Shown here: one piece after another, positions 3,448-34,546 of the stretch
Numbering within the stretch: the first letter of the stretch is position 1
How the letters are laid out: every line of letters begins with the position of its first letter
Origin: Armatimonadota bacterium
GTDB lineage: Bacteria; Armatimonadota; Fervidibacteria; Fervidibacterales; Thermosaccharophagaceae
Direction: 5' to 3'
Length of the DNA: 34,635 nt
NCBI GenBank assembly: GCA_025062195.1
Contig: JANXAS010000033.1
Location: 1-34,635 of the forward strand
Program-made: the position numbers and the translations under genes
The notes under the pieces: model-generated
The model's input: only the letters and a program-made list of their open reading frames with translations
Told to the model about the DNA's origin: nothing
The model's database searches: none

Positions 3448-4509
3448 TCACTTACTGAGCATGGTTAATAAGCCCAACCGCCATGGTATTTCGCCGTAGC
3501 TTTTGCCCACCCTTTCCTTGTCTGAAACACCCTGAAAAAGGAAACGAATACTTGCTGGGTCTACTTCCATGCGCTCATCGTAACCTGCCCGAATCAATTC
3601 ACCATGGCTAAATGAGTCCGTCCAATTTTCCCCAAAAAATTGCACATTTACTGGGCTTGCAAATGGCTTTTCGTATGTATCGGCAATTGCTTTCCATTTG
3701 CCATCAAGCGATTCAGCGATGTAAGCCTTATAGTATCTTCTGCCATTTGGTCCTTGCGCCTCAATTATCGTAAAATATGTGTTCAACCCTCTCAACCTGT
3801 ATGTGTGGCTTGCTTCAAATATATCGCCTACCAACACTACTTTGGGCTCGCTCCAGCCATCAGGAAATGACGATAGTTTTGTCTCAGAGCGCCACATTCT
3901 GCCATCAAGCGATGTGAAGAAAAGGTGTGCACTATTCTCGTCACAAATGACCCAAAAATCAATCCACCGTTCCACATTCTTTGGCTGTTCCGTGAAAAGC
4001 AGTCTCGGCTTAGTCCAACCGTGTGGATTTGCAATATCATCATTCGTTGAGTATGCTGGTTGAAGGGCTGGCTTGCGAGTTTGGTCAATAATTTGGAAAA
4101 TTAGATACCACTTTTTGTGTGGTGTAAAATAAAAAACCTGTGGTGCACAGAAATAGCCGTCAGTTATTCGCAGCATATGCCTTTCTGCGTTGGCTGCATT
4201 CTCAAAATCGGTAAATGAGATGTATTCAATCTGATGTGAGCGTTTTTTGCCCCTAACTGTGCAAAATAAGTGCCATCGCCCATTGTAGAAGACGATTGAA
4301 GGATCTTTGACGGAGTAAAAGAAGTCGTCTGGACGCTGCATAGGCGAAATAAGTGGCGGACTGCAAATCCACCTGAAATTCCCCAAAAGTATGCTCCCAA
4401 ACGAAATATTTTGCTCATCACCGCTATCATAAGCGATTGCGCAAATTGTCACAAATGTCAGCGTTGTAGGTAGCCCGAAATGAAGCATCCTTGTCACAAT
4501 TTGCACCAT
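3448..4509 (-). CDS. Secreted GH62 alpha-L-arabinofuranosidase
   Basis: The protein has 353 residues from the ATG at 4509, preceded by GAGGTG at 6 bases; the upstream GTG lies inside that binding site. A hydrophobic segment near residues 10-27 suggests secretion. The mature part carries the GH62 sequence pattern: FRWICSPPLISP, VKDPSIVFYNG, SFTDFENA, CAPQVFYFTPHKKWYLI, YSTNDDIANPHGW, WIDFWVICDE, FEASHTY, SHGELIRAGYD and PWRLGLLT. By comparison with GH62 and GH43 five-bladed propellers, the likely general base is the Asp of KDPS (~69), the pKa-modulating Asp is in WIDFW (~184), and the general acid is the Glu of FEAS (~233). GH62 enzymes remove arabinose side chains from arabinoxylan and related polymers. 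It lies 113 bases downstream of the GH42-like gene on the same strand, possibly co-transcribed. Confidence 0.9.
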   Translation of the reverse strand: MVQIVTRMLHFGLPTTLTFVTICAIAYDSGDEQNISFGSILLGNFRWICSPPLISPMQRPDDFFYSVKDPSIVFYNGRWHLFCTVRGKKRSHQIEYISFTDFENAANAERHMLRITDGYFCAPQVFYFTPHKKWYLIFQIIDQTRKPALQPAYSTNDDIANPHGWTKPRLLFTEQPKNVERWIDFWVICDENSAHLFFTSLDGRMWRSETKLSSFPDGWSEPKVVLVGDIFEASHTYRLRGLNTYFTIIEAQGPNGRRYYKAYIAESLDGKWKAIADTYEKPFASPVNVQFFGENWTDSFSHGELIRAGYDERMEVDPASIRFLFQGVSDKERVGKSYGEIPWRLGLLTMLSK

Positions 4510-4579
4510 TCTTCTCACCTCTAAATTTGAGAGTGACAGCAGCGGTGTCTAAATTTGAATAGGTCACTATGAACGACTG

Positions 4580-4622: not shown

Positions 4623-6785
4623 TTAGCGCAGCTCAAAAATCAGAGGCGCCCAAGGTTCAAGTATAGCAGTCACTTGTATTGTCACGCCGTAGTCTTGACC
4701 AGTGATTACATTGCGTATGTGGGCTTTGTTCGTGAAGATGATGCGAACTTTTTCGGCTTTCTCTATCGCTTCGTTCGTTGGGTAACCAACGGAGCGCAAT
4801 TCATCGGCGCGAAACTCATGGTTGCGAATTAGTGCGACAAATTCGGAGTCTTTTCCACTGTATCGCCAAACTTCAACACAAGCGACTTCTTGACCCGTAT
4901 CAGCATTCGCAACTTTAACTGGTGCTTCCAAGCCGGCCATCTTAAGCAACCTTTGCATCAATTCGCGATATGCTTTGCCCTTTGGCGGAGAAAGACGCAA
5001 TCTGCCGTAGTCACGCATGTCTAAGTTGAGATACACCGCAAAACCTTTGCCGTAGCGGTTGATGATGACTGCGGGTGTTTTAGCTTGAAGCATCGGCTTG
5101 CCCGTCGTGATAGAAATGTCAGGCTCGTAAATTGCCAATGGCTCATCCTGTGCAAGCAAAATTTCACCACCACTTGGCTTTGGTGACCAACCAACGCTTT
5201 TTCGGTTAATGCCAAATAAGTCATCCAACTGCCCTTGAGGAAGCCTTTTGCAATGTTCGTCCATTGTCGCAGTCATGTTGTCAGCGATGGCAACTCCGCC
5301 TGCGCGAACAAACGCTTTGACTTGCTCGCACTCCTTCTCCGACATAGCGACGGATTGCGGCAGAATCAGAACCTTAAATTTGCGCCGAGTCAACTCGCCA
5401 AGCTCAACCTGCTCGTATGAGACGAACTCAAACTGAAAGCCCAAATCTTCAACAAGCCTCACAAACGCATCTCTGGCTTTTGCTAACCGGGAGTGAATGG
5501 CTTCATAGGACGAGAAGCGTCTTGGCCAAGTGTCACCATCTTCCCTTGAATCAAACATCCAGTGAGCACGAATGCTAGCCTGCGAGTAGTGAATTGCGAT
5601 TGGGTCAACAATTGGCTCAACTTGGAAGAGCAGCGGCGCGACGGCTTTGATTTCTTTGAAGATGGCTGCCAACTGCTTGCCCCGTTCGGTTGGTGGCAAA
5701 TCAGGGGCGCTTTTGTCAATACACCTGCTTTTTTCATCATCCCAAACTATGCAACCTTTATCGCCATGAAGTAGCAATCGCCAAAGGCGCAATCTAATTC
5801 GGTTGTAATCTGTCCCGAAAACCGTCGCCAGAATTGGCGACCCATTCGGCATGAACGAGCGGAAGATTTCTCGGCTGTTGCAAATGTCATAAGGCTCAAC
5901 CCAATCAATTATTTGCGACAGGCGCCACAAATCGTAGCCGCCCCATGCACTTGGCATTTGCGTTCCTTCCAAGCCAACCAATGCATCTTTATCAACTTGG
6001 CGGATGATTTGGCGCATCCTTGCGATTGCTTGAGCAAACGAAAAGTCCATGAACTCACGATGGTCAGCCCAAGGGGCATAGTTTTCAAGCCGCCCCAATT
6101 TCAAAGCCTCGCGCTCCCTCGCTTTGATTTCGTAAGTTGTCATTGGCACAACCTCGTCCCACGAAGCGAAATTAGTCTCCCACTCGCGATTCAACGCACC
6201 AAGCGAACCATACCGCCCTTTTAGCCACTCACGAAACGCCCTCAGCGTATGCTCGCAAAAGCAATAATCCATCGGCGACGCAAAAGCGCCAATTGATGGT
6301 TCGTCCTGAAGGTTGTAAAACAGCGGGCGATGCGGCGCATAGCGCTGTGCCATGCTGGTCAGATACTTTGTGATTTCGTCCCAGAACGCAGGGGCGTCAA
6401 AACAGGGTTTGCGAACTAAGAACTTTTTGTCGCGCGTCTGTGTGTAACCACGGAAGTCTTCGTCGTAAAGTTTGCGCCGACCATGATGAAATGCAAGTTG
6501 CGGGACAAGATTCTCAACATAAAAGCCAAAGCCATGTTGCACAAAAGGTTTTGGGTCTCGCCCGCGATAGCACTGCTCGGCGGTGAACTCCAATTCGCGA
6601 AGCCGTTGAAACCACAATGCAATATTTTGAGCGACTGGGTCGGTGCTCCACATGATGGCTTGGTAGCTTTGCCATCTCACTTGAGCATGTGCAACTTGAA
6701 GCGCGATCACGGATAAGCAAACTGCAAACCATAGCGCACACCAGCTTCCATTGCGCCATCCAGAAAACTTGCATGAGATATGCAT
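4623..6785 (-). CDS. Secreted GH42-like glycoside hydrolase (beta-galactosidase trimerisation domain)
   Basis: The protein has 720 residues from the ATG at 6785, preceded by GAGGTGATTGAG; the frame extends 66 codons upstream without a good start. A signal peptide (charged start, hydrophobic residues 15-31, cleavage near AHA-Q at 34-35) predicts export. The TIM-barrel half contains FYNLQDEPSIGAFA (Glu162, candidate acid/base) and GALNREWETNFASWDEV, both GH42-like. The second half has the flavodoxin-like trimerisation fold (VLILPQSVAMSEKECEQVKAFVRAGGVAIAD) followed by a beta-rich C-terminus. The strand where GH42 normally carries its nucleophile reads PILATVFGTDY and lacks a Glu, so substrate and even catalytic competence are uncertain. 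Its neighbour, GH62, suggests a role on arabinoxylan or arabinogalactan oligosaccharides. Confidence 0.75.
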   Translation of the reverse strand: MHISCKFSGWRNGSWCALWFAVCLSVIALQVAHAQVRWQSYQAIMWSTDPVAQNIALWFQRLRELEFTAEQCYRGRDPKPFVQHGFGFYVENLVPQLAFHHGRRKLYDEDFRGYTQTRDKKFLVRKPCFDAPAFWDEITKYLTSMAQRYAPHRPLFYNLQDEPSIGAFASPMDYCFCEHTLRAFREWLKGRYGSLGALNREWETNFASWDEVVPMTTYEIKAREREALKLGRLENYAPWADHREFMDFSFAQAIARMRQIIRQVDKDALVGLEGTQMPSAWGGYDLWRLSQIIDWVEPYDICNSREIFRSFMPNGSPILATVFGTDYNRIRLRLWRLLLHGDKGCIVWDDEKSRCIDKSAPDLPPTERGKQLAAIFKEIKAVAPLLFQVEPIVDPIAIHYSQASIRAHWMFDSREDGDTWPRRFSSYEAIHSRLAKARDAFVRLVEDLGFQFEFVSYEQVELGELTRRKFKVLILPQSVAMSEKECEQVKAFVRAGGVAIADNMTATMDEHCKRLPQGQLDDLFGINRKSVGWSPKPSGGEILLAQDEPLAIYEPDISITTGKPMLQAKTPAVIINRYGKGFAVYLNLDMRDYGRLRLSPPKGKAYRELMQRLLKMAGLEAPVKVANADTGQEVACVEVWRYSGKDSEFVALIRNHEFRADELRSVGYPTNEAIEKAEKVRIIFTNKAHIRNVITGQDYGVTIQVTAILEPWAPLIFELR

Positions 6786-6964
6786 CTCAATCACCTCAAC
6801 CTCGTTTTTGTTAACGCTATCGCAGCGCGAACATTGTGAGTGACGCAGGTGTAAATTTAGCGGTAACGCAAACACTGCAAAATATAAAGCGCCGTTAGTA
6901 GCGAAGTGATAGCGATGCAGCGCTTCAACATGCTCACATCTCCACCCTACACTCCAAACTAACA

Positions 6965-6999
6965 GCGCTTCGCTTCGTTCCATGCTTCGCTACAAACTA
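6965..6999 (-). repeat. Dispersed palindromic element, family 2, degenerate copy
   Basis: GCGCTTCGCTTCGTTCC then TGCTTCGCTACAAAC resembles the minus-orientation family consensus (GCACTCCGCTTCGTGCC then TTGCTACGAAC). It is degenerate, so the assignment is tentative. Confidence 0.35.
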
Positions 7000-14309: not shown

Positions 14310-14436
14310 GCACTCACAAAATGCTTCGGTTAGAGCAGCTGCATCCTAACTCAAACCACTTTATCCATGCTGCTGCCGGACACTGAAGCAAAATCCACAA
14401 ATGGGGACACCGAACCAAAAAGCGAGAGTGAGAGAA

Positions 14437-15132
14437 ATGCCTAAGGTGAGATGGCTTGGGCATGCTTGTTTCCTCATAACTTCACCCAGCGGCAACATCA
14501 TCATTGACCCGTTCATCAAGGGCAATCCGCAATGCCCGGTAAGCATTGAACAACTCCCAAAACTTGATTCCATCTTAGTGACACATGGACACGGAGACCA
14601 CCTTGGGGATGCAATTGAGCTATGCGGCAAACATGACGCATTGCTCGTTTCCACATACGAACTCTGCGTCTATTGCCAGACAAGGGGCGTTCAAAAAGTT
14701 CACCCAATGCATATCGGTGGCGCTGCAAAGTTTTCATTTGGGACTGTCAAATTAGTTCCAGCGCTTCACGGCTCTGCTGTCACGCATCCAAATATCGTTT
14801 ACACCGGTGAGGCTTGCGGCTTCATTGTTACGATTGACGGCTCAGCACTTTATCACGCCGGCGATACAGCTCTCTTTAGCGATATGGAATTGATTGGCAG
14901 GTGCCATAGCATTGACTGTGCAATGTTACCTATCGGTGATAATTTCACAATGGGAATTGATGATGCTGTTATAGCAGCCACTATGCTTCATCCAAAGAGG
15001 GTTGTGCCAATGCACTACGACACATTTCCCGTCATCAAGGCAAACCCTTTTGAGTTTGCTCGTAAGCTAAAGGAAGCCAGCGAGGCTATACAGTGCCATA
15101 TACTCAAGCCGGGTGAAGAATTGGAAATTTGA
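14437..15132 (+). CDS. UPF0173-type metallo-beta-lactamase fold hydrolase
   Basis: The protein has 231 residues from the ATG at 14437 (MPKVRWLGHA), which matches the usual family length and start; 12 extra codons upstream look non-coding. The metal motif HGHGDH is at residues 50-55, with further ligands in ALHGS, LYHAGDTALFSDM and PMHYDTFP. The opening VRWLGHACFLITSPSGNIIIDPF is characteristic of UPF0173 (YtkL-like) proteins, predicted cytoplasmic metal-dependent hydrolases of unknown substrate. The alpha/beta hydrolase gene starts 9 bases after its stop and a secreted-protein gene follows, forming a three-gene operon. Confidence 0.9.
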   Translation: MPKVRWLGHACFLITSPSGNIIIDPFIKGNPQCPVSIEQLPKLDSILVTHGHGDHLGDAIELCGKHDALLVSTYELCVYCQTRGVQKVHPMHIGGAAKFSFGTVKLVPALHGSAVTHPNIVYTGEACGFIVTIDGSALYHAGDTALFSDMELIGRCHSIDCAMLPIGDNFTMGIDDAVIAATMLHPKRVVPMHYDTFPVIKANPFEFARKLKEASEAIQCHILKPGEELEI

Positions 15133-21597: not shown

Positions 21598-22053
21598 GGC
21601 TCACCAGGAGGTTCACCCTCCCGAATTTGCCGTTGGGAGGGTGAGGCTCCTGCCGAACCCAGAAAAAATTTGTGGCTCATCAGGAGATTCGCCCTCCCAA
21701 ACAAATTTTGGCTCACCGGGAGGTTCGCCCTCCCCCAGATTGCCGTTGGGAGTGTGAGGCTTCTGCCGAACCGAACAAGAACCTAATTCGTGGCTCATCA
21801 GGAGATTCGCCCTCCCAAACAAATTTTGGCTCACCGGGAGGTTCGCCCTCCCCCAGATTGCCGTTGGGAGTGTGAGCTCCCGCCGAACCGAGAAAAAAAT
21901 TGCCGTTGAGATGGTGAGGCTCTTGCCGAACCCAACAAGAACCTAATTTATGGCTCACCAGGAGATTCGCCCTCCCAAAACCGTCGTTGGGAGGGTGAGG
22001 CTCCTGCCGAACCCAAAAAATTGCCGTTGGGAGGGTGAGGCTCCCGCCAAACC
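21598..22053 (+). repeat. REP array 1 (left of the RAYT gene)
   Basis: About twelve units of 24-26 bases in two forms. Type A reads GGGAGGGTGAGGCTCC then TGCCGAACC (near 21635, 21748, 21866, 21908, 21989 and 22029). Type B reads GGCTCACCAGGAGGTTCG then CCCTCCC (near 21598, 21674, 21710, 21792, 21828 and 21952). B is an imperfect reverse complement of A, so neighbouring A and B units can fold into hairpins of about 25 bp. A 36-base B-B spacing and an A-B block of about 118 bases are repeated in tandem (21674-21772 and 21792-21889). Most A units are preceded by TTGCCGTT. Confidence 0.9.
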
Positions 22054-22085
22054 GAGTAAGTCGTCTTCTGAACCGAAAATTGTTG

Positions 22086-22544
22086 TCACCACCATTCCAA
22101 CACGAAAATCTCGCCTTGAAACAGCCAGTCCTCTGGGTTCTTTACTAAACCATGCCGAACGGGATTGTGGCGAACATACTCCCACGCAGCATCATAGCTT
22201 TCGGAAGCACGCAAACGCCTATCCCAATAGTCTGGTTGCCAACGATGGCTTGGATTTTTGTAACGCTTAGTGAACAGCGACTTCCAAAATCGCACCCAAT
22301 TGTCCAGCAGAACATCCTCAGCGCTTGGAGCAGCAAATAAGTGAAGGTGATCCGGCATCAACACATACCGACCTACAAGCCATGCTGTTGCTTCCTCTGC
22401 CCATATCTGACGCAATAGCTGATGCACTGTCTCATTCGCTAACCAAGGTTCTCGGTTTTTAGTGCACACGGTCGCAAGGACAATTGTTGGACGATTCAGC
22501 GCGATGAAAACCCCGTGAGCAGGATGTTTGCGTTCCTTTTTCAA
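22086..22544 (-). CDS. REP-associated tyrosine transposase (RAYT, Y1_Tnp family)
   Basis: The protein has 152 residues from a TTG start with GGGAGGTGA 6 bases upstream. The HUH-type metal motif is in YVLMPDHLHLFAAP (HLH). The C-terminal half has the family pattern WQPDYWDRRLRASESYDAAWEYVRHNPVRHGLV, in which the Tyr of WEYVRHNP or the nearby DYWDR Tyr is the candidate nucleophile. RAYTs nick and rejoin single-stranded DNA at REP hairpins and are held responsible for REP dissemination. The gene lies between two dense REP arrays whose units share its flanks, as expected for a RAYT and its substrates. The length is normal and no frame damage is seen, so it may be active. Confidence 0.93.
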   Translation of the reverse strand: MKKERKHPAHGVFIALNRPTIVLATVCTKNREPWLANETVHQLLRQIWAEEATAWLVGRYVLMPDHLHLFAAPSAEDVLLDNWVRFWKSLFTKRYKNPSHRWQPDYWDRRLRASESYDAAWEYVRHNPVRHGLVKNPEDWLFQGEIFVLEWW

Positions 22545-22565
22545 CGCAAATCACCTCCCTCACTT

Positions 22566-22820
22566 GGGAGGGTGAGACTCCCGCCGAACCCAGAAAAAAA
22601 TTTGTGGCTCACCAGGAGGTTCGCCCTCCCCCAAATTGCTGTTGGGAGGGTGAGGCTCCTGCCGAACCTAATCTGTGGCTCATCAGGAGATTCGCCCTCC
22701 CAAAATTGCCGTTGGAAAAATTGCCGTTGGGAGGGTGAGGCTCCCGCCGAACCTAATAAGAACCTAATTTGTGACTCATCGGGAGATTCGCCCTCCCGAA
22801 CCCAGAGGTTTACCTTCCGA
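22566..22820 (+). repeat. REP array 2 (right of the RAYT gene)
   Basis: Alternating A and B units in the same orientation as array 1: A near 22566, 22643 and 22729; B near 22606, 22677 and 22772; and a decayed B-like stretch (CCCAGAGGTTTACCTTCCGACC) at 22800-22820. The A-B spacing of about 14-15 bases (AGAAAAAAATTTGT type) allows long hairpins. The array begins about 10 bases from the RAYT ribosome binding site. Confidence 0.88.
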
Positions 22821-22835
22821 CCGAAAATCGTTTTG

Positions 22836-23219
22836 TTATGGCACTGACAAGATTCCTCTCAACCCTTGCTCCAAATTGTTCGCCCAAACCTTCGCCAATT
22901 GTTCAACTGTCATCTGGTTTGCTTCGGCATCTGCCTTCGTGACTGTCACGAACTGAACGCCTGCAACGGAAATTGACTTTATTGACCCAAGTGAATGAAT
23001 TCGGACAGTTAACGGGGCACCATTTACGAACAATTTCGTGAAAACCTGAGATAACCGACCTTGCAGAACAATAGCCCTTCCTTCAGGCGAAAGTCCGCCA
23101 ACAGATACTCGGAATCGGAAGAAATACTCGCCACCGAAAGCGACATCACTTGGGGTTTGCTGTGCGATAGCGGGGACAACAAAGCCCAACGCCAGCACTA
23201 ACACAACCCACTTTCTCAT
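22836..23219 (-). CDS. Small secreted protein, last gene of the PIN/HerA operon
   Basis: The protein has 127 residues from the ATG at 23219 (MRKWVVL), with GGGAGGTG upstream; the frame could begin eight codons earlier. A clear signal peptide (MRKWVVLVLALGFVVPAIAQ, cleavage after AIA or AIAQ) precedes a short alpha/beta domain. The C-terminal part (SISVAGVQFVTVTKADAEANQMTVEQLAKVWANNLEQGL) recalls the periplasmic segment found in front of some cyanobacterial MscS-type channels, but that is weak. The function is unknown. Only 28 bases separate it from the HerA-like gene, so it is probably co-transcribed, an unusual partner for an ATPase and a toxin-antitoxin pair. Confidence 0.7.
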   Translation of the reverse strand: MRKWVVLVLALGFVVPAIAQQTPSDVAFGGEYFFRFRVSVGGLSPEGRAIVLQGRLSQVFTKLFVNGAPLTVRIHSLGSIKSISVAGVQFVTVTKADAEANQMTVEQLAKVWANNLEQGLRGILSVP

Positions 23220-26444: not shown

Positions 26445-26483
26445 GATTCCTAAATCCGTTACTCGCCTATAGTTCCGTTTTTT

Positions 26484-26520
26484 ACGGCACTTAGCTTCTT
26501 GCCTTGCTAAGAACCAACAA
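26484..26520 (-). repeat. Dispersed palindromic element, family 2
   Basis: ACGGCACTTAGCTTCTTGCC then TTGCTAAGAACCAACAA is a slightly decayed copy of the element seen at 30537-30576. Confidence 0.5.
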
Positions 26521-26715: not shown

Positions 26716-29139
26716 TCATAGCGTTTTGCAGTATAGAACAATGCTTCTTCTTGGCAGTAAGTGTATGTGTTTTTGAGAGTAAACTTGCTTGCCAGTAACG
26801 ATATCAATTGCCTCGCTTACAAATGGCACATTAACCGTGTATGTTGTGTCATCGGTAAGGTTCACAGCAATGAAATACGGACCGTAACGGAGAATGTAAA
26901 GTTTCCCAAACCCATTGGGTGCTTCCATAAAAATGGTTGCAATTCTGTCAAAAATTTGGGTTGTGTGGTGAATTCTGGCGAGGTTATTGACTCGGACATG
27001 CTTTGGGCTTCTTCCACCTGCTTTGAAACCACGCCGCCATTGAAGCGAAACATATAACCTGCTCCCATCACTGTGCCTAACTGCGACAACATGCCCCAAT
27101 TCGTCAACCCAAGCCATGTCGGGTTGTGCATGTTCCATGAAAAGCCGAACATTCGTCGGCGGCATCTGTTCAGTCAAAAGTTGTTCAAAGTATTGCGCTG
27201 AGTAGATTCGCTTAAGCACCATGCTGACGAAATGAGCATTTCTCCAATCAAGCGGAAATGGCTCATTCCCGTCTTCAAGCCAAATTTGTAATGCTCGCAA
27301 GGCAATTGGACTTTTAAGAACTGCAGCTGCATAGAAGTTGATTGGGTAATCAATGCGTCCCGGCGAGAAATTATTGCGAGTGCTGATTACTTCTTCTCTT
27401 CGCCAGCAACGAAATCCGTCAGCAGTAGTGTCTGGGTAGAAGAAATGCGAAATCGCTTCAATTGCTTTCAATGCTTGCCTTTTCACTTTTTCATCACCGG
27501 TCAATTCCGCCATCTCACAAGTTAAGTGAGCACACTCAATTCCATAGTTTCCACAATAGCCACCACCCAAAGTGCCCCAAGGTTCAAGCGGCAAACCTTT
27601 TGGGCTAAACCAAAAACCACCAAGTGGGTCTGAAGAAAGCCCAACTGCCGAATAAACGAACTTCAGAGCCGCATCCCGTGACCATGCTTCCTCTGGCGAA
27701 AGGTGTCGCAATGCCTCATTACATAGCCACATTGATTGGATTTGCACCAAATCTTGATTTGTGGCGTGACCGCGCGCTTCTCTCACCAAGTAATCCCGAT
27801 GCGAGGCAAACATACGAGCATAAACTTTGCCCCGCAGGATTGGTGGCGTAGCAGGATCGCCATCATCATCTATGGCTTCTTCCAAAATCCCTTTGGCTTT
27901 CAACACATCCGCCACTTCCAAAAAGGCGCGCGCAAGCCAACGAGTCCCATAGCCCTCAAGACAACTCCAACCACGATTTCGTTTTGCAACTCCGACCCAC
28001 TGGCGTGCTGTAAAGCCACCGTTAGCGCCTTGTGCCCGCGCAAAGTAGTCAAGGGCTGCAACAATGCGATCAATCAACTCTTGACTGCCGTGAAACTTTG
28101 AGCCACCCCAATTGTAAGCTCGCGCATAAATTCCAACTATTCCCAAATCAGCACAATTTCCATCGGTCGTCCGTTGCGTGAGCCAATCAAGGAAGGCTTG
28201 CTTGGTTAAATTTGTGGGCGGATTTGCTCTCGTTGTTGCACCCCAAGAAATTGAAGGGATTTCGCCCCTCTCAATGCGTTCTTTCCACCTTGAACCATAA
28301 ATTTGCGATTGAAGCAGCCTTTCAACAGCCTCATCAATTTGCTTACGGTTCAAAGCGATTAATTCGCTTATTGGTTTACACTGCTTCAATTTGGGCAATT
28401 GCGGTTTGCCTTGTTTCTCGTCAGGTTCTGGCTCGAAAAATGGGTCTTTGTGAATGTAGATGCGATAGATGCCTCTTGATGGGCTTTTAAGTGGTCGTTC
28501 ACGAATGTCCGGGGGAGCGTAAGGAGCAACTGAACCAATCGCTATCAACTTCAACCTAACTTGCGTTTTGCCCTCAGTAAGCTCTTTTGGAATTGGTATG
28601 GTCACATATACAAAGCGCCCGGGAAACTCTGCTTCGCTACGATTGTATGAGAGTTCCGGCATCTCACTTAAGTAGCTGCCATAGCGTTTTCCACTTTCAT
28701 CGGCAAGGAAAAGCAAGCAAGATTGTGTGTCTGAGCCCCAAAGCTTGACTGTAAGGTAATTTTGAGCCTTTGGGTCACAACGCAATGTAAAGGCAATCTC
28801 GCCTTCAGGTTCAATCTGGCGACATTGCTCGCCCAAACCACCTGTAGTTATTCGTGTGTTGGGTGCAACGATGTTATGCTTCGCTTCTGAAACTTTGTCG
28901 CCAAGCTGAACGAAGTCAAGGCTGTTAAGACATACCAGATTACCTGAAACACATTCACAGATTCCTATAGAAAAGACAAAAAGCAACAACGATTTCCACC
29001 TTATTAAAATTGAAGTTGCGCAGTTGAACTTAAGTATGGCTAATATGCTGCACGCATTTTTTGGTTTTGCTAATTTTTCCCCGAGAGAGCTGTAGCACGC
29101 TCCTGAGAAACGATGCCATCTGCATAACCCACATAACAT
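26716..29139 (-). CDS. Large secreted protein, probable alpha/alpha-toroid domain, unknown activity
   Basis: The protein has about 807 residues from the ATG at 29139, which has GAGGTGAAAGGTG upstream. The hydrophobic export segment (ILIRWKSLLLFVFSIGICECVSG) lies near residues 46-68, unusually deep, so the true start may be later. Next comes a beta-rich region (about 70-220) that resembles a carbohydrate-binding or jelly-roll domain. The central part (about 290-660) has repeated helical pairs with aromatic, Gly-rich turns (YARAYNWGGSKFHGSQELIDRI, ALDYFARAQGANGGFTARQW, GTLGGGYCGNYGIECAHLTC) as in polysaccharide lyases and glycosidases with an alpha/alpha toroid. A beta-rich C-terminus follows. 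I cannot assign a family or substrate. The gene context of secreted hydrolases suggests polysaccharide processing. Confidence 0.7.
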   Translation of the reverse strand: MLCGLCRWHRFSGACYSSLGEKLAKPKNACSILAILKFNCATSILIRWKSLLLFVFSIGICECVSGNLVCLNSLDFVQLGDKVSEAKHNIVAPNTRITTGGLGEQCRQIEPEGEIAFTLRCDPKAQNYLTVKLWGSDTQSCLLFLADESGKRYGSYLSEMPELSYNRSEAEFPGRFVYVTIPIPKELTEGKTQVRLKLIAIGSVAPYAPPDIRERPLKSPSRGIYRIYIHKDPFFEPEPDEKQGKPQLPKLKQCKPISELIALNRKQIDEAVERLLQSQIYGSRWKERIERGEIPSISWGATTRANPPTNLTKQAFLDWLTQRTTDGNCADLGIVGIYARAYNWGGSKFHGSQELIDRIVAALDYFARAQGANGGFTARQWVGVAKRNRGWSCLEGYGTRWLARAFLEVADVLKAKGILEEAIDDDGDPATPPILRGKVYARMFASHRDYLVREARGHATNQDLVQIQSMWLCNEALRHLSPEEAWSRDAALKFVYSAVGLSSDPLGGFWFSPKGLPLEPWGTLGGGYCGNYGIECAHLTCEMAELTGDEKVKRQALKAIEAISHFFYPDTTADGFRCWRREEVISTRNNFSPGRIDYPINFYAAAVLKSPIALRALQIWLEDGNEPFPLDWRNAHFVSMVLKRIYSAQYFEQLLTEQMPPTNVRLFMEHAQPDMAWVDELGHVVAVRHSDGSRLYVSLQWRRGFKAGGRSPKHVRVNNLARIHHTTQIFDRIATIFMEAPNGFGKLYILRYGPYFIAVNLTDDTTYTVNVPFVSEAIDIVTGKQVYSQKHIHLLPRRSIVLYCKTL

Positions 29140-29251
29140 CACCTTTCACCTCTACAAACAGAGCACATAGAAGGCATATCTTGCAAGTCTTTTTGTCCAA
29201 TCACGCTCAAAGGAAATCAACCCACAAGTTTGCCGTTAAGGAGGGTAAAAT

Positions 29252-30207: not shown

Positions 30208-30422
30208 GACCAATTCTGCACCAAGAATAAAAGGCATAAAACAACACCTTTATCTCGCCCTTTTAAGGGATTGCACAATAGCCATTATTTTCCAATCAAT
30301 GTAGCCTCGTAGCTCGTTCACAATGGTATTTTAACCCAAGTTGCTACTTTAAGAAATGAGGCGGAAAAAGCAATGCAAATCGCCCCCGATAATCGCCGTC
30401 ATTATCTTCAACTACTTTTTTT

Positions 30423-30463
30423 ACGGCACTTCGCTTCGTCCCGTGCCTTACTACGAACAAACA
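30423..30463 (-). repeat. Dispersed palindromic element, family 2
   Basis: ACGGCACTTCGCTTCGTCCC then GTGCCTTACTACGAACAAAC. It is in the same orientation as the copy at 30537-30576 and opposite to that at 30468-30507. Confidence 0.6.
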
Positions 30464-30467
30464 ACAG

Positions 30468-30507
30468 GTTCGTAGTTAGCCACGAAGCAAATGCGAAGTG
30501 GCGTCAC
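30468..30507 (+). repeat. Dispersed palindromic element, family 2, inverted middle copy
   Basis: GGTTCGTAGTTAGCCACG then AAGCAAATGCGAAGTGGCGT. GCCAC and GTGGC arms replace GGCAC and GTGCC, so pairing is conserved although the arm sequence differs. Confidence 0.55.
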
Positions 30508-30536
30508 AAATTGCCCCTTGTCTCGTGTTCAATTTT

Positions 30537-30576
30537 TACGGCACTCCGCTTCGTGCCTTGCTACGAACAAACAAAC
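30537..30576 (-). repeat. Dispersed palindromic element, family 2, best copy
   Basis: TACGGCACTCCGCTTCGTGCC then TTGCTACGAACAAACAA is the copy closest to the consensus. GGCAC/GTGCC arms surround TCCGCTTC. It lies about 85 bases downstream of the large propeller-MBL gene. Confidence 0.6.
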
Positions 30577-30659: not shown

Positions 30660-33600
30660 TCACTTTTGCTCATCGCCTTTCCTTAAAGCGGCGTTAATTT
30701 TTTCCTCGCTTGCCTTTAGAACCTTCAAGAGGAACTCTTCGGCATTTTTTTCCGAAATATGCCCCATAAATGCGAATTCAGGCTTGATTGGCAAAACCCT
30801 TGAACGAAGAAGTTCTGTCAAAATCTTAGCCTTTTCAACATCCCCCCAACAGTGATACAGTGTATTTTCCAGAAAGCTATCACCCGTGAAAATGACCCTC
30901 TTTCCATTTAATTCCATCGCATAGACAACGGAATCAATACTGTGTCCCGGCACGAAAATTGCCCTAACTTTCACGCCTAAAATTGTTATCTCTGTCTCAT
31001 CCCCAGGACGCTTTAAAGGCAATGGTATGTCAATTGGACAAGGAACCCAAATGCCATATCCATTCCATGTTGGCACCATCCAAACAGTCGCAAATGCAGC
31101 TGTAGCAGGCGCAATAGTCTTTGCTCCGAGTGTTCGCCAAAGATACATTGCCCCCAAATGGTCACCATGAGAATGACTCAGCAGGACATAGCGCACATCC
31201 TTTGGTTCAACCCCAATTGCCCTCATTCGCTGCCATGTATACGGAATGCTTGAAGTCCCGCCACAGTCAACCATAATTGCGCCATCCTTCACCTTGATAA
31301 GCCACATATCTCCAATATAGGCATGCTCAGGTCCAGTGCGCCCAACCCTGTAAACTGGCACACCATCAAATTCTGGCTTTAATGGCTCACTTTGTGCCAA
31401 AAGCTTGGAGACCGGCAACTTGACACGCCAACTCACTTTGCCATCCCTTTCAATTCGCCAAACCTCGCCGTTGTGTGTGCCTGCGATTGCGAAACTGCCG
31501 TTAGCACTCCATCGCAAAATTGAGGGGAAACTAACCTCAATGTTTGCTAAAAGTTTGTTGTCGTCCGAGTCACCTCTTAGCAAATATACTTTCCCATCCC
31601 AACAAGAAACGAGAATCATTCCACTGTGCATGGCAAAATCGCTCACTGCATCGGGAAAGCGCAGCTCATTTATCCATGCCTTTTTCCCAATGTCGTAGAT
31701 GAAAATTGTCTCTCCATTCGGATCAGTTGGCAACCAAGCATAGCCAGCCAGACCGCGAGAAAACCATGACATTGGAACGCACCAAACCTTCTCACCTTTC
31801 TCATCAATATGTGCCTCAAATAACCCATCCTTTGGCAACTTAGTGCGAACTAACTCCTTGCCAAATGCATCAAATACTCGCAACCATCCACTTTGCCGTG
31901 TGACAAATGAAACATGACCATGCCCACTCCAACTACCAATTAAGTTTCGTTGCTTTATGCGAATCCATCCGCCATATTCTGTGACAGCAACCTTTGAACC
32001 ATCGCCGCTTAATGCCACTGACATTATCACACGGAATGGAACTAAGGCACGCGGCTTCATGCCAAATTCTCCAGAGATCTCCGGAAATTCATCCGAAGGC
32101 TCAGGTGGCTTTTTAACCTCAATGGCTTCAGAAATTGGCATAGCACTCCAAAGCGTGCCAGCAGTGAGAGAATTCCAAACAACCAAACCAGCAGGTGGAA
32201 GGCGCATCTCTTCAACAAGTTTAGCGTCCACTTCGCTCACATTTGGGACGAGATAGCCATATGCCACAACATGCCCATCAGCACTTGCTGCCATACGAAA
32301 CGGACGCTGATAATTGAATGGATGGTGTTGCCGGCCACAATCTTTGTCTATTCGCCATGCACCATCGTCTGACATCACAGTGAAAAGGAAATTATGAGCA
32401 CGAACGAACAAATCGCCCAAAAAACTAACGATCCAACCGTTTTTCCAATCACCGCTGCCATACCTTACAAACCCAAGATCCCAAATGCTATCCACAAATA
32501 CCTTCTCTTCGCCCTTTTCATCGCCAAAAAGGACGATAGTTGGTGTTGGCTCAGTAAATCGTGAGTATGCTAACCCAACTCCGAAAACTTTGGCAAACGG
32601 CAGCACTGCAACCTGATGTGGAGCCCATGGGAATGCATAACGCCCCCAAAGCAACTCACCATTTTGAGAAATTAGCCAAAAGTTTTTATCGTTTCGGAAA
32701 GCCATTGTCGCTATGGCGATGAATTCCCCATCATCACTTATGTCCAATGCCGAAACGCTTTGAGGATGTAAGAATGTGCCCTGACGCAAAAACTGAGGCA
32801 CATTGCTGCGCTTAAGCGGCTTGCCAATTTGAACCGTTTTCAATTTTGGATATTGTTTAGGGCTTGTTTTCACTTTTTTACCACCCTCCACTACAAGTTT
32901 TATCTCACACATCAACCTTTCTGTTGGCTTAGGTTGCTCTGATTCGGTTATGCCAATCCGAAGCCATGCAATCCCCTCCTTAAGGGAAGCAGGCAAGTGT
33001 AAAATTGCCTCGCCACGCCCATCAAAAACGACCCTCAATTTTTCCCAACCCTCTTCATCATCAGCAAACGATGGTGCTTGCTGGACAAATGCCACCAACT
33101 TTGGCTCTTTCATCACTTCCAAACCTTTTACATTCACCCATCGCCAAAGCACTTTTATCCTACCATTTGGTTGGACGATGTCTGACGACAATGCAATGTG
33201 CAAAACCTGCTCCTTTTCCATCCCGTCAGGCGTGGAAAAGAATGGGCGGTCAATGATGAAGATGTGATGTTTAAACGATTGGATTTCCTCACCACGCAAA
33301 AGCCACTCATTCTGCCCATCAGCTCCAAATCGCAATGTTCTAAATCGCCACCCAAATAGCGAAAATTGAAGGCTTGAATGAAATGTCCCTTTTGGTCTTG
33401 GATCCCAGTTACCCAAAGCTGCCCCATATGCTTCAAAGGCTTGTGTAGCTTCTTCACGCCCGCTAATACCAATACCGTATGCACCCGGCAATGGCTTGTC
33501 AATCAAAATCACTGTTGTAATGTTGAACGATGGGATACGCACTTTAAACCCATCTGTTTGAACAGCTTGCGAGGGAAAATCATCCCGAAAATTTGGCAAA

Positions 33601-34211
33601 AATTTCGCCCCTTTCCCGTCAACATGAAGCAAGCTGTTGCTTATGTTAGTCTCATACCCACCTTCCATCGTGGCAGGGAGGTAGAGTGTAAGCGGCGAGG
33701 CAAATAAAGCTGGTGGAGAACGCCACACCTCTTTACCACGATACTTTACCGTGAGCCATACTGGAATTGACTGCCCTCCATCATTGAAAGATACGAAAGT
33801 AACCGGATAGAGGCGAAATAGGAGGTGATTGCCCCGGACAATTAGGTCTGGCGACAAACTTTCAACTTTGCCTTGCACAATACGAAACCTGTGACATCCA
33901 GGTTGGATTATGTGCTCACCCTCTGGCAAATCCAAGTTCAAGATTGTGTAGCGCTTCCCATTGACATCAAAATAGCTCTTTCCGTCCACATTTATCCCAA
34001 AAGCCCATGTTGTCAAAGGACCTCTATAGCGAGAGTAGGGGGCAATTTTGCCAACCTGAGCAGTTTCAACCGGTTTATTTTGCTCCTCAGCCCTGACGAG
34101 TTGGATGGTAAGATTCTCAGCAATGGAAGCCGATAAGATGCAAAAAATGGGGATGAAATGGGAAATGAGCCTAAGCAAGCGAAATATAGCAAATGGCGCA
34201 AACCCGCACAT
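30660..34211 (-). CDS. Giant secreted beta-propeller protein with C-terminal metallo-beta-lactamase domain
   Basis: The protein has 1183 residues from the ATG at 34211, preceded by AAGGTGAG; the frame extends 56 codons further without a good start. A signal peptide (FAIFRLLRLISHFIPIFCILSASIA) predicts export. About residues 35-480 are beta-sandwich-like. About 495-930 form a propeller with WD40/PQQ-like blades (SALDISDDGEFIAIA, MSVALSGDGSKVAVTEYGG, LRWSANGSFAIAGTHNGEV). The last 240 residues are a complete metallo-beta-lactamase domain: YVLLSHSHGDHLGAMY (HSHGDH from about 1013), VPGHSIDSV, VIFTGDSF and FMGHIS supply all metal ligands. MBL domains hydrolyse phosphodiesters, thioesters, lactams or sulfates; the substrate here cannot be named. 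The fusion of a long sensor-like propeller to a hydrolase in one secreted chain is unusual. Confidence 0.85.
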   Translation of the reverse strand: MCGFAPFAIFRLLRLISHFIPIFCILSASIAENLTIQLVRAEEQNKPVETAQVGKIAPYSRYRGPLTTWAFGINVDGKSYFDVNGKRYTILNLDLPEGEHIIQPGCHRFRIVQGKVESLSPDLIVRGNHLLFRLYPVTFVSFNDGGQSIPVWLTVKYRGKEVWRSPPALFASPLTLYLPATMEGGYETNISNSLLHVDGKGAKFLPNFRDDFPSQAVQTDGFKVRIPSFNITTVILIDKPLPGAYGIGISGREEATQAFEAYGAALGNWDPRPKGTFHSSLQFSLFGWRFRTLRFGADGQNEWLLRGEEIQSFKHHIFIIDRPFFSTPDGMEKEQVLHIALSSDIVQPNGRIKVLWRWVNVKGLEVMKEPKLVAFVQQAPSFADDEEGWEKLRVVFDGRGEAILHLPASLKEGIAWLRIGITESEQPKPTERLMCEIKLVVEGGKKVKTSPKQYPKLKTVQIGKPLKRSNVPQFLRQGTFLHPQSVSALDISDDGEFIAIATMAFRNDKNFWLISQNGELLWGRYAFPWAPHQVAVLPFAKVFGVGLAYSRFTEPTPTIVLFGDEKGEEKVFVDSIWDLGFVRYGSGDWKNGWIVSFLGDLFVRAHNFLFTVMSDDGAWRIDKDCGRQHHPFNYQRPFRMAASADGHVVAYGYLVPNVSEVDAKLVEEMRLPPAGLVVWNSLTAGTLWSAMPISEAIEVKKPPEPSDEFPEISGEFGMKPRALVPFRVIMSVALSGDGSKVAVTEYGGWIRIKQRNLIGSWSGHGHVSFVTRQSGWLRVFDAFGKELVRTKLPKDGLFEAHIDEKGEKVWCVPMSWFSRGLAGYAWLPTDPNGETIFIYDIGKKAWINELRFPDAVSDFAMHSGMILVSCWDGKVYLLRGDSDDNKLLANIEVSFPSILRWSANGSFAIAGTHNGEVWRIERDGKVSWRVKLPVSKLLAQSEPLKPEFDGVPVYRVGRTGPEHAYIGDMWLIKVKDGAIMVDCGGTSSIPYTWQRMRAIGVEPKDVRYVLLSHSHGDHLGAMYLWRTLGAKTIAPATAAFATVWMVPTWNGYGIWVPCPIDIPLPLKRPGDETEITILGVKVRAIFVPGHSIDSVVYAMELNGKRVIFTGDSFLENTLYHCWGDVEKAKILTELLRSRVLPIKPEFAFMGHISEKNAEEFLLKVLKASEEKINAALRKGDEQK

Positions 34212-34546
34212 AAAACTCACCTTCCAGGCAAGAATTTTGAATACACAAGATAAAGCAAATTTGGCTTGGCTGGAAAAATTCCGCCATCGCTTGCAATTTG
34301 CTCGCTGACTTTCAAGGTAGGAGTTACGCAGTTGAATTTTGAGTTGGATGAAATCCGACAACCCCTCCGATTTTTTCACGACGGTTTTTCGGACAAACTA
34401 TCGTCTGCCACTACGAAACGAAGCCAACTGCGTAGGTCTCATCGCTAATAATTTTTGCACGCTTCTCAAGTTCGTCTGCCACCCTTTGCTGCAGGAAATT
34501 TACCTAAATTTTCGGCTTAGCAGGAACTTCACCTTACTACTCAACT
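34212..34546. other. Intergenic region upstream of the propeller-MBL gene
   Basis: No gene is supported. It must contain the promoter of the minus-strand propeller-MBL gene. Near 34402-34415 it holds TCGTCTGCCACTAC, a word shared (reverse complement) with the hairpin element at 3114-3142. A partial copy (TTCGTCTGCCACC) is at about 34475. Confidence 0.45.

Follow-up and report, generated by a model that had tools for sequence, protein, structure and literature searches.

Enzymes of the metallo-beta-lactamase (MBL) fold are among the most versatile hydrolases and are mostly small and free-standing. The closest neighbours, in both fold and sequence, of the MBL domain described here are the subclass B3 and HARLDQ enzymes (L1, LMB-1, CAU; PDB 1sml and 6dr8). 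They share with it the HxHxDH motif and the later histidine ligands, but the domain scores far below the cut-offs of these families, branches separately, carries a conserved TGD and is fused to a propeller. Hydrolases of the glyoxalase II/GloB type have both the HxHxDH and the TGD pattern, yet they are intracellular, free-standing enzymes. A likeness of another kind is offered by the TIGR04558 enzyme (quinoprotein relay system zinc metallohydrolase 1), an MBL hydrolase that is functionally linked to PQQ-type (propeller) proteins and so resembles the pairing of propeller and MBL domain reported below; to our knowledge, these hydrolases and their propeller proteins are encoded separately and not fused. 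WD40/PQQ propellers of solved structure (PDB 2ymu, 3hxj) have the same repeat fold as our protein but, unlike it, no attached hydrolase.

The fusion gene and its domains

The window, that is, the whole stretch of 34,635 nucleotides analysed, is an entire contig of a 3.42-Mb draft genome assigned to the Armatimonadota. The original prediction saw in it a secreted chain of 1183 residues joining a beta-sandwich, a propeller and a complete MBL domain. A chain of exactly this length is encoded by one uninterrupted open reading frame, which lies on the minus strand, a point that the prediction had left unstated (Table 1). The frame opens with ATG 34211, preceded immediately 5' by the Shine-Dalgarno-like AAGGTGAG, and closes with a TGA stop (bases 30662-30660); the plus strand across the same interval contains many stops. 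An alternative in-frame start, GTG 34379, would give 1239 aa, the next in-frame stop upstream being at 34400. The contig ends 424 bases upstream of the gene, which cuts off the upstream neighbours.

Table 1. Features of the propeller-MBL gene and of the encoded protein (window coordinates).
Feature	Position	Strand	Basis
Complete 1183-aa ORF: signal peptide, orphan N-terminal region, beta-propeller, MBL-fold domain	30660..34211	(-)	
Sec signal peptide (predicted; residues 1-31, cut after SIA)	34119..34211	(-)	Hydropathy and reading by eye
N-terminal region, residues about 32-467, without recognised family	32811..34118	(-)	No Pfam or PDB match
Beta-propeller, residues about 469-935, ~7-8 irregular blades (counted by eye)	31407..32807	(-)	Profile against PDB
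MBL-fold hydrolase domain (putative), residues about 940-1183	30660..31394	(-)	Pfam Lactamase_B, B3-type profile matches, Foldseek
H963 in GxxHxxxG, immediately preceding the first pair of MBL strands	31323..31325	(-)	Invariant in 6/6
HSHGDH metal motif (H1013, H1015, D1017, H1018)	31158..31175	(-)	Sequence; invariant in 6/6
H1090 of PGH, the third histidine binding the first metal	30942..30944	(-)	Invariant in 6/6
D1111, bridging aspartate in TGD	30879..30881	(-)	TGD in 6/6; bridging as in characterised dizinc MBL-fold enzymes
H1151, last histidine ligand (GH)	30759..30761	(-)	Invariant in 6/6

The N-terminus shows the pattern RLLRL, a hydrophobic stretch (Kyte-Doolittle peak 2.33) and SASIA followed by E. 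Judged by eye, this looks like a signal peptide, as had been proposed, of the Sec type, and export is predicted from it. For the approximately 435 mature residues that follow (32-467), neither Pfam nor the PDB gave a match; these residues have no relative in the 290 other genomes of the same phylum and no match among plasmid records, and are absent from the propeller-MBL homologues. Since this region matches nothing searched, the label "beta-sandwich" is unproven. As to the propeller, the single-sequence Pfam matches of this region were under the curated cut-offs (for WD40, 22.9 bits with the region alone vs a gathering cut-off of 27), whereas a five-member family profile (A6) matched structurally solved propellers of the WD40/PQQ type (best, 2ymu at E=2.8e-22; also 3hxj at E=1.5e-5); it is the family profile that upholds this part of the prediction. 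A self-BLAST for blade repeats gave zero off-diagonal matches, so that the blades could be numbered only by eye. The propeller also contains a motif, SRGLxG...LPxD, that is common to the diverged homologues.

Structure models were of limited quality. AlphaFold2 run on the full chain with three sequences gave a mean pLDDT of 34.7, too poor for use, with values below 50 across residues 32-467. A second model, likewise from three sequences (mean pLDDT 50.6), was fair only in the second half of the propeller, where strand-rich blades appear from model residue ~258, and in the MBL domain; the first half of the propeller stayed below 50. With this second model, Foldseek matched L1 and HARLDQ/B3-type MBLs (TM about 0.6, taken over the target length); WD40 proteins were matched too, at a lower TM of about 0.35-0.4. 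These matches are consistent with both the propeller and the MBL assignments and are not independent proof of them.

Homologues and distribution of the propeller-MBL pair

Because a few Planctomycetota also carry a propeller joined to an MBL domain, we regard the fusion, on this sequence evidence, as genuine. The best counterpart is a Phycisphaerae protein of 820 residues, 49% identical over 716 aligned columns (49% also in the propeller region) and colinear through the propeller-MBL junction, with an N-terminus unrelated to that of our protein. A second Phycisphaerales genome encodes the same protein (L003), whose propeller is broken by an assembly gap filled with N, and a partial copy of the fusion lies at a contig edge in genome G572. 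Two diverged members (G569 and G437, 28% identity; 1144 and at least 1198 residues) consist of a propeller, an MBL domain and then a C-terminal region of FG-GAP repeats. Since the N- and C-terminal additions differ among homologues, the propeller-MBL pair is a module that has been given different ends, and the two domains are probably inherited as a pair. We consider it a rare, uncharacterised combination of familiar parts, not a new kind of enzyme. One Planctomycetota genome with a fusion (locus L013) also encodes a free-standing MBL (L022, 1444-2187, plus strand), adjoining a LamG-like/fibronectin-like protein.

Genomes were searched by a loose first-look screen and by a wide scan with six exact peptide patterns, and sampling in depth covered two phyla, that of the window and the Planctomycetota. 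Only one of the 291 genomes of the window's own phylum, the window's own, carries the gene. The Planctomycetota yielded just five carriers, in draws of 392 genomes from the phylum and 397 from the class of the Phycisphaerae carrier, together with smaller sets. Viral contigs and phages had no relatives of the fusion, only standalone MBLs; plasmids had no fusion and a single weak match, to the MBL part alone. Some five additional carriers came to light, and our literature searches turned up no description of a propeller-MBL fusion; within these searches, the architecture did not prove to be a common or already characterised family.

The sole carriage in the phylum, together with the grouping of the MBL domain with Planctomycetota fusions (see below), counts in favour of an explanation that includes transfer, and the gene probably reached this lineage horizontally. 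The 808-aa neighbour (26716-29142, minus strand), which has no Pfam match, has a homologue with 45% identity in the same phylum (L028), and the GC and GC3 of the propeller-MBL gene are within the range of the other genes on the contig. These two observations indicate that the contig belongs to the genome and that the gene was probably transferred into it. The L028 homologue itself gives a weak match to polysaccharide lyase 8.

Metal site and relationships of the MBL domain

The complete C-terminal MBL domain of the original prediction is borne out. Pfam Lactamase_B matches residues 967-1137 with E=4.8e-21 and 76 bits against a gathering cut-off of 22.7, which places the domain in the MBL-fold superfamily, and the metal ligand set is complete: H1013, H1015, D1017, H1018, H1090, D1111 and H1151. 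All seven ligands and the TGD are invariant in the six family members. TGD is the bridging-aspartate pattern of dizinc hydrolases; the domain would accordingly be expected to bind two zinc (or similar) ions, one through H1013/H1015/H1090 and the other through D1017/H1018/H1151, with D1111 bridging them.

Among named families, the nearest are subclass B3 and HARLDQ, followed by GloB and the AidB lactonase, all with scores far below the cut-offs. The GloB model TIGR03413 gave 29.8 bits vs a cut-off of 200.8, with a weak match in six of six members, and TIGR04558 likewise matched all six weakly (best 6.7e-06). The phylogeny suggested along with the original prediction was carried out on 22 MBL sequences. 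It grouped the window's domain with three close Planctomycetota fusions at a support of 100/99, apart from the B3 enzymes; the deeper forks did not resolve, and they do not tell whether the two groups of fusions arose once. By these tests, the domain is probably a hydrolase of an unnamed MBL-fold group.

A second protein of the window has the same fold: an MBL-fold protein encoded at 14401-15132 (plus strand) is a metal-dependent hydrolase of the PRK00685 type, with a score well above the cut-off.

Proposed function and its alternatives

Our best explanation as a whole, to which we assign a probability of about 0.5, is a secreted dizinc hydrolase that is docked by its propeller, acts in a carbohydrate setting and is encoded by a transferred gene. 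The protein would be exported through the Sec pathway and work outside the cytoplasm, where the MBL domain would cleave a bond of the ester or lactone kind or a similar one. The propeller would be a rigid base by which the hydrolase docks to its substrate or partner; the first suggestion, that it holds out a polymer or partner for the hydrolase, is possible. The variable ends, namely the orphan region here and the FG-GAP repeats in two Planctomycetota, may fit the module to the particular surface or partner of each host. The domain order, the full ligand set, the conserved pairing and the rarity are shown directly; export, catalysis, the type of bond, the carbohydrate setting, the role of the propeller and the transfer are inferred.

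Extracellular carbohydrate breakdown would be the likeliest setting because of the neighbours found at homologous loci: a heparinase II/III at L018; an alpha-L-fucosidase, a beta-helix/GH141 protein and a sodium:solute symporter at L002; and a symporter at L020. The presence of glycoside hydrolase genes elsewhere in the window and the weak polysaccharide lyase 8 match of the L028 homologue also speak for it. The protein is best read as a secreted dizinc hydrolase of the ester/lactone type, probably acting beside polysaccharide-degrading enzymes, with its substrate inferred from gene neighbourhoods only. Against this setting, the glycoside hydrolase genes of the window are not adjacent to the fusion gene, and these bacteria often carry genes of this kind. 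The neighbours of the G572 fusion do not look carbohydrate-related, as judged without a family search. The glycoside hydrolases of the window, one GH62-like (3448-4518, minus strand) and one GH42-like (4623-6983, minus strand), are encoded side by side, far from the fusion gene.

A conserved secreted propeller-MBL module, passed between phyla and fitted with different end domains, would show a way to aim MBL chemistry extracellularly, and it provides a defined construct for substrate finding; until a substrate is found, it stays an uncharacterised domain combination. A bolder reading, which we consider doubtful, is that of a rare, mobile, cross-phylum extracellular family in which the propeller aims the dizinc hydrolase at a polysaccharide-derived substrate not known for the superfamily. 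Such a family, if real, would amount to a new class of enzymes that modify carbohydrates.

The alternative that fares best is that of an extracellular MBL-fold sulfatase, phosphodiesterase or nuclease in place of an ester/lactone hydrolase. The fold supports such chemistries and the sequence does not discriminate among them, but RNase BN (Rbn), UlaG and a UlaG-like protein of the window fall across a deep, weakly supported split of the tree (72/44), and there is no NCBIfam sulfatase model among the 25 best matches of the domain; we therefore judge this alternative unlikely, though worth keeping in view. Still less likely is a sensory or binding role for an MBL domain that no longer turns over a substrate, with the propeller and N-terminal region acting as a structural surface protein. 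The large accessory regions would suit such a role, as would the FG-GAP repeats of the relatives, which resemble surface-adhesion repeats; however, the invariance of the seven ligands across members only 28% identical suggests selection on catalysis. We give very little credence to a secreted subclass-B3-type metallo-beta-lactamase on a large scaffold. In its favour, no named families are nearer than the B3 and HARLDQ enzymes, which also come first among the MBL matches in Foldseek, but the B3 equivalog NF033105 gave 53.6 bits vs a cut-off of 240, the B3 references form a separate group at 98/94 with the fusions outside it, and the family has an invariant TGD at the place taken by Ser221 in structurally known B3 enzymes. 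Scores so far below the B3 and HARLDQ cut-offs, the position outside the B3 group and the conserved TGD together led us to reject this identity: by the available tests, the domain is not a beta-lactamase. Finally, an assembly chimera or a misbinned contig, which would fit with the lack of a homologue of the gene in any of the 290 remaining genomes of the phylum, is scarcely credible given the same-phylum homologue of the 808-aa neighbour, the in-range GC and GC3, and the recurrence of the junction, at 49% identity, in a Phycisphaerae genome that was assembled independently, a conservation across phyla that excludes the joining of two genes by assembly error in practice.

Several repeated elements were also seen in the window. 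REP-like palindromic repeats of the GGCACGAAGCGGAGTGCCGTAA type lie at 30418-30574, between the fusion gene and its downstream neighbour, and again at 26482-26503; three copies were counted vs none in shuffles. An IS200/Y1-type transposase-like ORF (22086-22544, minus strand), just under the Pfam cut-off, is possibly a REP-associated transposase that belongs with these repeats. In the same area, a repeated WEGEAPAEP/GRVRLLPN stretch runs in one frame of the plus strand (21950-22850) and probably represents non-coding repeats, not genes.
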